A program made the translations under genes and the position numbers. The notes beneath the pieces are model-generated. The model ran no database searches and had not been told where the DNA came from. It saw only the letters and a list, made by a program, of their open reading frames with translations. Of a DNA stretch of 64,000 bases, positions 28,909-32,470 are shown in pieces (position 1 is the first letter of the stretch; the number at the start of each line of letters is the position of its first letter). This stretch comes from Bacillus sp. J37 (GTDB taxonomy: Bacteria > Bacillota > Bacilli > Bacillales > Bacillaceae): contig NZ_JAEK01000014.1 in the NCBI RefSeq assembly GCF_000518865.1, forward strand, positions 1-64,000, read 5' to 3'.

Positions 28909-29148
28909 GGAGAATCCCTCCTTACTTTTTCTATGTTTATCAAGAAATGATTGTACATTAAAACCTGAACGTTCTGTTAGGACTATATTATTCAAGCATG
29001 ATCAAACTAATGTATAAACTGGTGTAACATTCTTGTGGTCTAAAATCTGCACCTATTCACGTATATTAAATTAATGAGAACTGTACAAGTACTTGAACTT
29101 TTAATACTAAGGACTTGTTGCTTAATAGATACTAGGGGGCGTCATATT

Positions 29149-30372
29149 TTGAGTTTTACTTCAAAACTAAAGACAATGTTCATCGCCATTTTTATTAGTG
29201 GTTTAACGATTGCAATTATTCTCAATCCTAAGGAATCACTTGATGCTTCTATAAGAGGATTAACCATATGGTGGGAAGTTGTCTTTCCATCATTACTTCC
29301 CTTTTTTATTGTATCAGAACTTCTTATCGGGTTTGGGGTTGTAAGATTTATCGGAGTTCTATTAGAACCATTTATGAGACCTGTATTCCGGGTTCCAGGG
29401 GTTGGTGGATTTGTATGGGCAATGGGAATGGCCTCCGGTAATCCTGCCGGTGCCAAGCTTACAGCAAGAATGAGACAAGAAAAACAACTTACAAAAATTC
29501 AAGCCGAGCGATTAGTTTCTTTTACAAGCTCCTCAAATCCTTTATTTATCTTTGGTGCTGTGGCAGTAGGCTTCTTTGATAAACCGTCTCTTGGTGTTTT
29601 ATTAGCAGCTGCACACTATCTAGGAAATCTTTGTGTCGGCCTTACGATGAGGTTTTACGGTAAATCTGATGATACAATTAGAAACGGTAAGAAGAGGCTT
29701 TTCCCCTCTCCTTCACTAGCATTTAAGGAGCTTCATTCAACAAGGATCACCGAAACCCGGCCTCTAGGAAAAATGCTTGGAGATGCTGTTATTTCCTCCA
29801 TACAAACCTTATTAATGATTGGTGGTTTTATTATCCTTTTTTCAGTATTTAATAAAATCTTAGCCATCATTCATGTAACACAGCTTATCGGTGTTGTTTT
29901 TTCTGGCGCCTTATCACTTTTTCATATTGCTTCAGATCTTAGTGTTCCTTTAATTACTGGCATTTTTGAAATTACACTGGGTAATCAACTTGTAAGTGAG
30001 ACAAACGCTAGTTTGCTTGAAAAAGTGATGATTGCAAGTTTTATCTTAGCCTTTGGAGGATTATCTATTCAAGCCCAAGTTGCAAGCATTTTAGCTGATA
30101 CTGATATTCTGTTTAAACCCTTTTTTATAGCAAGAATTTTGCAAGGTATTTATTCTTCTATAATCGCTTTTCTTCTTTTTAGACCAATATATCTCAATCT
30201 GGAATCATTTAACACTAGCGAATTACCCGTTATGTTAATGAAACATGGACCAGGCTTGGCTAAAGATTATTGGGAATTGATAGTACAAAGTGGTCCGCTT
30301 ATAACAATTATTTCGTTACTTTTCTATATTTTTCTATATGGTAAAAGAAATGTCTTTACGAAAACGAGTTAA
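29149..30372 (+). CDS. ylbJ: Sporulation integral membrane protein YlbJ
   Basis: YlbJ is a polytopic protein of the nucleoside-recognition (Gate) family made in the mother cell under sigma-E and needed for spore cortex formation. The TTG at 29149, behind AGGGGGC, gives 407 residues; an ATG at 29074 lacks a ribosome binding site. About eight hydrophobic segments and the GMASGNPAGAKL motif near 105 and SFTSSSNPLFIFG near 140 are visible. It faces coaD and is divergent from ylbK. Confidence 0.92.
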   Translation: MSFTSKLKTMFIAIFISGLTIAIILNPKESLDASIRGLTIWWEVVFPSLLPFFIVSELLIGFGVVRFIGVLLEPFMRPVFRVPGVGGFVWAMGMASGNPAGAKLTARMRQEKQLTKIQAERLVSFTSSSNPLFIFGAVAVGFFDKPSLGVLLAAAHYLGNLCVGLTMRFYGKSDDTIRNGKKRLFPSPSLAFKELHSTRITETRPLGKMLGDAVISSIQTLLMIGGFIILFSVFNKILAIIHVTQLIGVVFSGALSLFHIASDLSVPLITGIFEITLGNQLVSETNASLLEKVMIASFILAFGGLSIQAQVASILADTDILFKPFFIARILQGIYSSIIAFLLFRPIYLNLESFNTSELPVMLMKHGPGLAKDYWELIVQSGPLITIISLLFYIFLYGKRNVFTKTS

Positions 30373-30407: not shown

Positions 30408-31459
<1,052 letters not shown>

Positions 31460-31745
31460 CTGTTTCACCACTACTTCTAAATTTTTACTTTTTCTTATAT
31501 GTAATATGCATCAAAAAACTTGATTTCCTGCTTCCTATTGCGCAGATATGTTCCTTTATACAATTGTTCTACCGATCGTATAATGTGGATTGAAATTAAT
31601 TAATCTAAAGAATCCACTTTTCAAGTTTCACTTTATCCTACCACAGCCATTCTATACGATACAATCATTTCCTTTCTAGACGTACTTAGTCAATAAGACT
31701 ATATATACCTTTGTATCTACAAAGAATTTTTTTTGAAATTATTAT

Positions 31746-31773
31746 GTATACAGATAGATGAAATGGTGATAAT
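31746..31773 (+). promoter_or_regulatory. Sigma-F-like promoter for the csfG-type RNA
   Basis: GTATA at 31746-31750, a 14-bp spacer and GGTGATAAT at 31765-31773 match the forespore sigma-F pattern (GYATA / GGNNANANT). The expected start site is near 31780, the base of the first hairpin of the RNA. Confidence 0.6.
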
Positions 31774-31779
31774 GAGTAG

Positions 31780-31932
31780 TAACAACATCGATTCGTTGAT
31801 GTTGTTGCCAACCGCGGAGAAGACTTACGTTTCCCCATAAGTCTTTCCTCCGGTTTCTCCTCTCCCTTTGCCTTCAGCCTTTAGGAAAAGGTATTGAAGG
31901 ACCCTGCAGGATTTATCTGTAGGGTTTTTTTT
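31780..31932 (+). ncRNA. csfG: CsfG / ylbH-leader type structured small RNA
   Basis: About 150 nt with four hairpins. First, AACAACATC pairs with GATGTTGTT across a TTCG tetraloop. Second, AAGACTTA/TAAGTCTT is extended by ACCG-GGAG/CTCCGGT. Third, CCTTCA/TGAAGG. Fourth, a terminator ACCCTGCAG/CTGTAGGGT followed by eight T residues (31901-31932). A pyrimidine-rich stretch with CTTTCCTCC and TCTCCTCTCC resembles the 16S anti-Shine-Dalgarno. B. subtilis CsfG, a sigma-F/G-dependent RNA, and the Rfam ylbH element map between ylbG and ylbH (rsmD), the same place. No reading frame is evident. Identity is inferred from position, promoter and structure. Confidence 0.75.
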
Positions 31933-32080
31933 GTACTGTTTAGCGATTCAAAATCTTAACAGATATAAATATTAGAATAGGTACATAAATTAGAATCCCA
32001 CCCTCTTAACTTTTTAGTTGGTTCATGCTATAGTGATATTCGGTAAAATGTACGGATAAAATACCTATAGGGGGATAAAT

Positions 32081-32470
32081 ATGATTCAACGATTCATTGA
32101 ACTTGGTGAAGGATATTCAGATATTTATGAATTAATAGAAACTTCCAAGGCTAATCAACATAGAGTAACACAGCTAATAGCATTACATACGCAACGTAAC
32201 ACAAAAGAAGTTACTTCACTTGTTGTTATAATGAAGCCAACAGATCCCGGAAATTTTCAAGCTATTTATATTTGTCGTGAAGGAATTTCTAATCCAAATT
32301 TTATTACAAACAAACGTTATGAGTTATTTAAAGAGCTTTCTGAATTATTACATAAACAAATTATTGAAATTGAAGTAAAACCTTCATCAATGTTTAACGA
32401 AATAGACTTATATTACCAATATTTAATTGGTATTCTCCGTTTAAATCACTTATTACCACCATTACAGTGA
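32081..32470 (+). CDS. Conserved hypothetical protein (DUF7147-like)
   Basis: A 129-residue soluble protein with ribosome binding site AGGGGGA. The sequence starts MIQRFIELGEGYSDIYEL and has a mixed alpha/beta pattern with the segment SLVVIMKPTDPGNFQAIYIC. I recall near-identical small Bacillus proteins annotated as DUF7147 (earlier, wrongly, as methylthioribose kinase). Function is unknown. It lies between the csfG-type RNA and ylbG, convergent with ylbG. Confidence 0.8.
   Translation: MIQRFIELGEGYSDIYELIETSKANQHRVTQLIALHTQRNTKEVTSLVVIMKPTDPGNFQAIYICREGISNPNFITNKRYELFKELSELLHKQIIEIEVKPSSMFNEIDLYYQYLIGILRLNHLLPPLQ

Follow-up and report, generated by a model that had tools for sequence, protein, structure and literature searches.

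CsfG (S547) of B. subtilis, described in 2011, is an RNA encoded beside rsmD (ylbH) on the opposite strand, with a sigma-F/sigma-G promoter, CU-rich stretches and an intrinsic terminator. In the available text of the papers that treat it, CsfG is under sigma-F and sigma-G control or sporulation-specific and has three C-rich regions, which lie in single-stranded parts (PMC8216469; PMC4409812), no target or role was known for it as of 2021 (PMC8216469), and the available parts of papers up to 2022 likewise report no known target. RoxS/RsaE and FsrA also possess C-rich regions able to pair with ribosome binding sites, and for CsfG, RoxS and FsrA such pairing has already been proposed in print (available text of PMC4409812 and PMC8216469); unlike CsfG, RoxS/RsaE and FsrA are controlled by ResDE and Fur and have known targets. 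Bvs196 (S357) resembles CsfG in being forespore-specific, under sigma-F and sigma-G, and conserved in Bacillus, whereas its length of 294 nt and its position between hinT and ecsA mark it as a different RNA (available text of PMC9147052).

Northern blots of the RNA upstream of ylbH show the opposite strand only, and that RNA corresponds to the CsfG of Marchais et al. 2011 (available text of PMC3574147). The ylbH leader itself is recorded as not detected by dRNA-seq in B. amyloliquefaciens (available text of PMC4634765).

A csfG gene beside rsmD

Within the window, by which we mean the whole 64,000-nt stretch of DNA analysed here, an intergenic element beside rsmD is transcribed away from that gene and agrees with B. 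subtilis CsfG in its position opposite rsmD, its sigma-F/sigma-G type promoter, its CU-rich stretches and its intrinsic terminator. Its neighbours are rsmD and coaD (minus strand), a DUF7147 gene (plus strand) and genes of the DUF2129 and YlbF families, ylbG and ylbF (minus strand), the names rsmD, coaD and ylbG being assigned from family and gene order. The arrangement differs from that of B. subtilis in that the DUF7147 gene intervenes between csfG and ylbG. The features are:

31746..31773, plus strand: sigma-F/sigma-G type promoter, GTATA (31746-31750), a 14-nt spacer and GGTGATAAT (31765-31773); from sequence and upstream conservation
31779..31932, plus strand: csfG RNA, its start placed about 6 nt past the −10 element and its end at the terminator T-run; from the fold (z −6.7) and RF00516 on the opposite strand
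31779..31808, plus strand: hairpin P1 with a TTCG loop, outside the Rfam model; from the predicted fold and two-sided changes
31810..31855, plus strand: hairpin P2, its 3′ arm bearing UUCCUCCGG and its loop side UUCCCC; from the predicted fold
31854..31864, plus strand: invariant tract UUUCUCCUCUC, of which only the first two bases are paired; identical in 86 of 86 loci
31871..31900, plus strand: hairpin P3; from the predicted fold and two-sided changes
31901..31932, plus strand: intrinsic terminator, hairpin P4 (31901-31925) and T-run TTTTTTTT (31925-31932); from the predicted fold and conserved terminators
30884..31471, minus strand: rsmD (ylbH), divergent neighbour; Pfam PF03602, E 3.2e-58

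A sequence-only reading had placed a CsfG-type RNA at 31746..31932, comprising a sigma-F-like promoter, four stable hairpins with TTCG capping one of them, a strong terminator and no ORF, and each of these points was borne out. The promoter is close to the sigma-F consensus, for which a spacer of about 15 is typical. From 31779 the plus strand is predicted to form four hairpins at −58.9 kcal/mol, a fold equalled by 0 of 200 shuffles, and the T-run follows the fourth hairpin. No plus-strand ORF of at least 30 aa was found wholly inside the transcript; a 35-aa ORF on the same strand begins at 31733, ahead of the promoter. A generic scan of the window for sigma-70 promoters and terminators listed neither the csfG promoter nor its terminator.

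Homology to the CsfG family is provided by RF00516 (ylbH leader), which the Rfam scan places on the complementary minus strand at 31812-31934 with 100.1 bits, in agreement with the earlier remark that the ylbH-leader annotation lies on the opposite strand; the core could be aligned with 85 other loci. Rfam reported no RoxS- or FsrA-type family, either over the window with its gathering threshold or within 31600-32100 with E allowed up to 1; the two other Rfam matches in that interval, Spot_42 (E 0.19) and anti-hemB (E 0.029), fell well short of their cut-offs. It is nearly certain that the locus is csfG. That it specifies a CsfG-type sporulation RNA from the plus strand, as the sequence-only reading had it, is well supported by its promoter and terminator, by the inverted copies and the association with sigma-G described below, and by the published B. 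subtilis northern blots (available text of PMC3574147); this identity was already known.

An invariant CU-rich core

The comparison covered 86 loci from 86 genomes, anchored on the core, 64 of them from the class and 22 from the phylum-wide draw. L001-L056 were the top-scoring loci of the class and phylum draws, and L057-L086 came from 30 weaker genomes picked by hand. The tract UUUCUCCUCUC was identical in all 86 loci, which span many families, an invariance that is partly selected because every locus was found by RF00516, whose model covers the core. Each base of UUCCUCCGG, which precedes it, was kept in 80 to 86 of the 86 loci. Deviations from the core were an extra T in L100-L102, GGTCTCTCCCCTCCC in L142, and changes in two matches among the phylum draw's 20 weakest.

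Little besides the core and a terminator hairpin could be aligned in the 22 other-class loci, where P1 and P2 are altered or lost and the typical arrangement is UUCCCCAUAAGCUCUUCCUCCGGUUUCUCCUCUCCC shortly ahead of a terminator-like hairpin. The P2 helix changes or disappears in distant loci while its 3′ arm persists; the P2 arm reads UAAGUCUUUCC in the window, compared with UAAGUUCUUCC in most of 31 aligned relatives. Conservation of the core thus outlasts the core's own helix, which points to contact with another molecule, and we infer from the sequences that function may reside in the CU core, with the hairpins serving as a scaffold. The sharper question becomes which partner holds UUUCUCCUCUC constant in Bacillaceae and other classes alike, given that the hairpins around it vary.

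Of the C-rich stretches in the window's RNA, the predicted fold puts UUCCCC at the P2 loop, leaves UUUCUCCUCUCCC mostly unpaired and has UUCCUCC paired. Exposure had been claimed for two tracts; it holds for TCTCCTCTCC (31856-31865), which is unpaired, and fails for CTTTCCTCC (31843-31851), which is paired in the 3′ arm of P2. The invariant UUUCUCCUCUC differs from a plain anti-Shine-Dalgarno sequence.

Candidate partners of the core

The best explanation of the whole, to which we assign a probability of roughly 0.6, is a csfG gene whose trans-acting CU-rich stretch pairs with GA-rich sites in mRNAs. According to this model, CsfG would act in trans, with UUCCCC in the P2 loop, the UUCCUCC arm and the unpaired UUUCUCCUCUCCC pairing with GA-rich sequences, probably ribosome binding sites; pairing would engage a set of forespore mRNAs and reduce their translation in the manner of RoxS at ppnKB. 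By analogy with RoxS and FsrA, pairing with GA-rich ribosome binding sites is the most likely mechanism, with a chance that is about even. Retention of the core while the surrounding P2 helix changes is expected for a contact in trans, and RoxS offers a published parallel, obstructing a ribosome binding site by means of a C-rich region (available text of PMC4409812); against this, the eleven-base tract is kept phylum-wide, a constancy greater than a shifting set of mRNA targets seems to call for.

In this genome 13 copies of the 9-nt complement GGAGAGGAG were counted, one of them csfG itself, compared with 10 of the reversed control. Four of the 12 sites besides csfG precede the start codon of an ORF of at least 100 aa, glnA being one of them (the names glnA, purF-like and flgK-like reflect our own reading of the protein sequences). 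The pattern GGAGAGGAGN{3,11}ATG was searched in 61 genomes, and 123 sites were taken from the matches listed; 21 sites of G104, one of G350, two of G688 and three duplicates were left out, and 120 sites were retrieved. An ORF of at least 40 aa lay within the stretch at 100 of these 120 sites, and the proteins formed seven pairs, counted among the matches listed and without a control pattern: three of the same gene in the same genus, two of a gene shared between families (purF- and flgK-like) and two of apparently related but distinct proteins. Among the matches listed, no gene was common to more than two genomes over the 100 ORF-linked sites. These pattern searches for targets of the C-rich tract, a kind of check that had been suggested, yielded no conserved mRNA target, and with one of the tracts predicted to be paired, the proposed pairing of these tracts with ribosome binding sites was not corroborated.

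Alternatively, the CU tract may bind one invariant partner, for example a forespore RNA-binding protein that CsfG would hold or recruit instead of pairing with mRNAs, although we consider this rather unlikely. Such a partner would fit the identity of UUUCUCCUCUC across many families, the failure to find a conserved mRNA complement, and the survival of little but the core and terminator hairpin in the other-class loci. However, strong conservation is also typical of ordinary sRNA seeds, and the deviating loci listed above show that the core is not absolutely fixed. In B. subtilis CsfG is enriched with Hfq, but deletion of hfq lowered CsfG only modestly (available text of PMC3574147). A further proposal, quite unlikely in our judgement, makes CsfG an ancestral element of the phylum's forespore programme, namely a minimal RNA consisting of a single, nearly invariant CU-rich motif of 30-odd nt plus a terminator, which would be kept or lost with sigma-G and whose motif would contact one invariant partner, either a protein or a structured RNA, in place of mRNA targets that change.

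Pairing of CsfG with 16S rRNA, in which CUUCCUCCGGUUU would complement AAACCGGAGGAAG ahead of GGUGGGGAUGACG, is very improbable. The CsfG of the window matches the 16S rRNA of a same-order genome by exact complementarity over 12 nt, a borderline result in that 12 of 1000 dinucleotide shuffles attain 12 nt, and the pairing would be possible in G137 (with G-U pairs, by our own reading) and in G606. However, in G475, the sole genome in which both partners are changed, CsfG reads CUUCCUUCAAUUU and 16S rRNA AACACGGAGGAAG, so that the changes are uncompensated; G003 and G328 combine CUUCGUCCGG in CsfG with an unchanged 16S rRNA, giving one mismatch; and the paired stretch takes in hardly any of the invariant tract. 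A 16S match was obtained for 6 of the 24 genomes in this test.

Promoters, terminators and inverted copies distinguish the strands

RF00516 and the window's csfG are the same DNA, yet Rfam models the other strand, omits hairpin P1 and files the element as a cis-acting leader of rsmD. What such a leader would have in its favour is the minus strand of the Rfam match and a position next to rsmD that 85 of 86 loci keep, along with the folding properties considered below. The signals for transcription lie on the csfG side. Of the 86 loci, 81 have GTATA in the 110 nt preceding the core, where 14.0 would be expected, and 10 have it on the other strand beyond the terminator. The full motif GTATA-N14-18-NA[ACT]A[AC]T was present in 51 of 86 loci on the csfG side against 0.8 expected, and in 0 of 86 on the minus-strand side; both expectations come from shuffling single bases. 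A simple rule called a plus-strand terminator in 68 of 86 loci and a minus-strand one in a single locus.

Orientation provides a second line of evidence. rsmD was divergent in 82 of the 86 loci (61 of 64 in the class, 21 of 22 in the phylum draw) and was not found in one, while csfG was inverted in three (L010-L012, from G052, G180 and G199). These are all three genomes of genus g3 in the class draw, a genus of the window's own family, and in them csfG, promoter and terminator included, runs in the rsmD direction. Bacillus sp. PAMC26568 (L330), a named record, likewise has an inverted csfG with promoter and terminator beside rsmD. Because the inversion puts the Rfam strand antisense to the rsmD direction, the element cannot be an rsmD leader in such genomes. 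In the literature covered, mostly without subscription papers, no report was found of an inverted csfG or of a csfG-less family with diverged sigma-G, which is no proof of novelty.

The fold alone cannot tell the strand, since the minus strand also folds far beyond chance (z −5.81; 0 of 200 shuffles). Taken over its full length, the element was more stable on the plus strand in 35 of the 86 loci; among the 64 class loci, that strand was the more stable for P1 in 48, for P3/P4 in 46 and for P2 in 6. The better folding of P2 on the minus strand would suit an rsmD leader; we read it as a pyrimidine arm held fixed by a demand other than pairing. Examining covariation on both strands, as had been suggested, gave a divided answer. 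In a wobble test on the ungapped stems of class loci, the ratio of G-T to A-C was 53:14 for P1 and 96:33 for the 3′ hairpins, favouring plus, and 12:60 for P2, favouring minus, the P2 bulges being beyond the test's scope. The corresponding ratios in phylum loci were 7:6, 10:17 and 2:12, which are undecided or favour minus. A bulge-tolerant count of G-U versus A-C cells (41 vs 4 for P1, 21 vs 3 for P2) leans towards plus because the structures were predicted for that strand. With RNAalifold on gap-stripped alignments, the minus strand had the lower energy in A2 (−34.21 vs −28.44) and A3 (−1.95 vs −0.87) and the plus strand in A1 (−6.7 vs −0.65). Two-sided changes were observed at 3 of 5 predicted pairs of P1 in an alignment of 58 loci, and at 8 of 9 pairs of P3 and 5 of 8 of P4 in 31 loci.

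A cis-acting rsmD leader on the minus strand is hardly credible and was rejected, given that the element is inverted in three genomes, that promoter and terminator are conserved on the csfG strand, that the presence of the element tracks sigma-G, and that the published northern blots carry no leader-strand signal (available text of PMC3574147).

Co-occurrence with sigma-G in the class

RF00516 matched 229 of 398 class-draw genomes at E 1e-3. Strong sigma-G (TIGR02850, best E below 1e-130) was present in 242 of the 398, by a threshold chosen once the values were known; the cut-off built into the tool yields 237. csfG was found in 229 of these 242 genomes versus 0 of the 156 others (Fisher p 4e-96, a value that does not count independent events because the genomes are related). 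Among the 156, 132 gave weak TIGR02850 matches (about 1e-35 to 1e-43), which by our reading are other sigma factors, and 24, all of family f18, gave intermediate ones (1e-97 to 1e-120).

Searches with R1, a core model built from sequence only, covered 56 genomes, made up of the 13 csfG-less genomes with strong sigma-G, the 24 of family f18 and 19 without sigma-G. R1 matched nine of the 13 (E 5.6e-6 to 0.017), with a divergent rsmD adjoining, and a tenth, G014, carries by eye a diverged csfG-like copy beside rsmD. In G076, G168 and G397, all with strong sigma-G, no csfG was found by RF00516 or R1. The 43 control genomes gave R1 matches up to E 0.0099 (G088), and neither rsmD nor coaD lay in any of the loci retrieved for them; because R1 gives chance matches too, four of the recovered genomes (E 0.0017 to 0.017) rest on rsmD adjacency.

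None of the 24 genomes of family f18, with their intermediate sigma-G, had a csfG match, and no CTCCTCTC was found in the 520 nt upstream of rsmD in nine of nine such genomes examined (L131-L134, L136, L137, L139-L141). Family f18 is a possible sporulating lineage without CsfG and, with its diverged sigma-G and no csfG found, provides a natural control. Within family f19, genus g61 has four genomes (G045, G266, G311, G355) with neither strong sigma-G nor csfG. Outside genus g61, family f19 has both in the class draw.

Occurrence across the phylum

RF00516 matched 113 of the 299 phylum-draw genomes at E 1e-3. The class itself accounts for few of these, 105 of the 113 coming from outside it; the Rfam cut-off of 50 bits passes 9 of the 299 and, outside the class, 1 of the 105. 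To judge from the 42 of 105 examined, the weaker out-of-class matches look real: rsmD adjoins in 38 of the 42 and is divergent in 21 of the 22 best loci, and among the 20 weakest phylum matches 17 have a divergent rsmD, 18 an exact TTTCTCCTCTC and 8 GTATA upstream. Strand, 5′ end and cut-off of the RF00516 entry are indicated as needing correction, the strand having already been corrected in print.

A 20-nt core pattern was found in at least 118 stretches of named records, and the matches listed include Alicyclobacillus, Brevibacillus, Thermoactinomycetaceae, Fuchsiella and several Clostridia MAGs. rsmD was divergent in 71 of the 80 named-record matches listed, inverted in one and not found in four, with too little upstream sequence in a further four; GTATA lay upstream in 58 of 77 of those listed. 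By these sequence comparisons, csfG tracks spore formation widely across the phylum.

Two contigs filed outside Bacillota, from an Acetobacteraceae MAG (L386) and a Desulfovibrio MAG (L387), carry csfG beside rsmD; they are probably misbinned Bacillota contigs. Elsewhere in the window, a group II intron RNA (RF02001, 130.6 bits) lies at 72-243 on the minus strand, and a gate-domain membrane protein (PF07670) is encoded near csfG at 29074-30372 on the plus strand, which we take to be probably the sporulation protein YlbJ.
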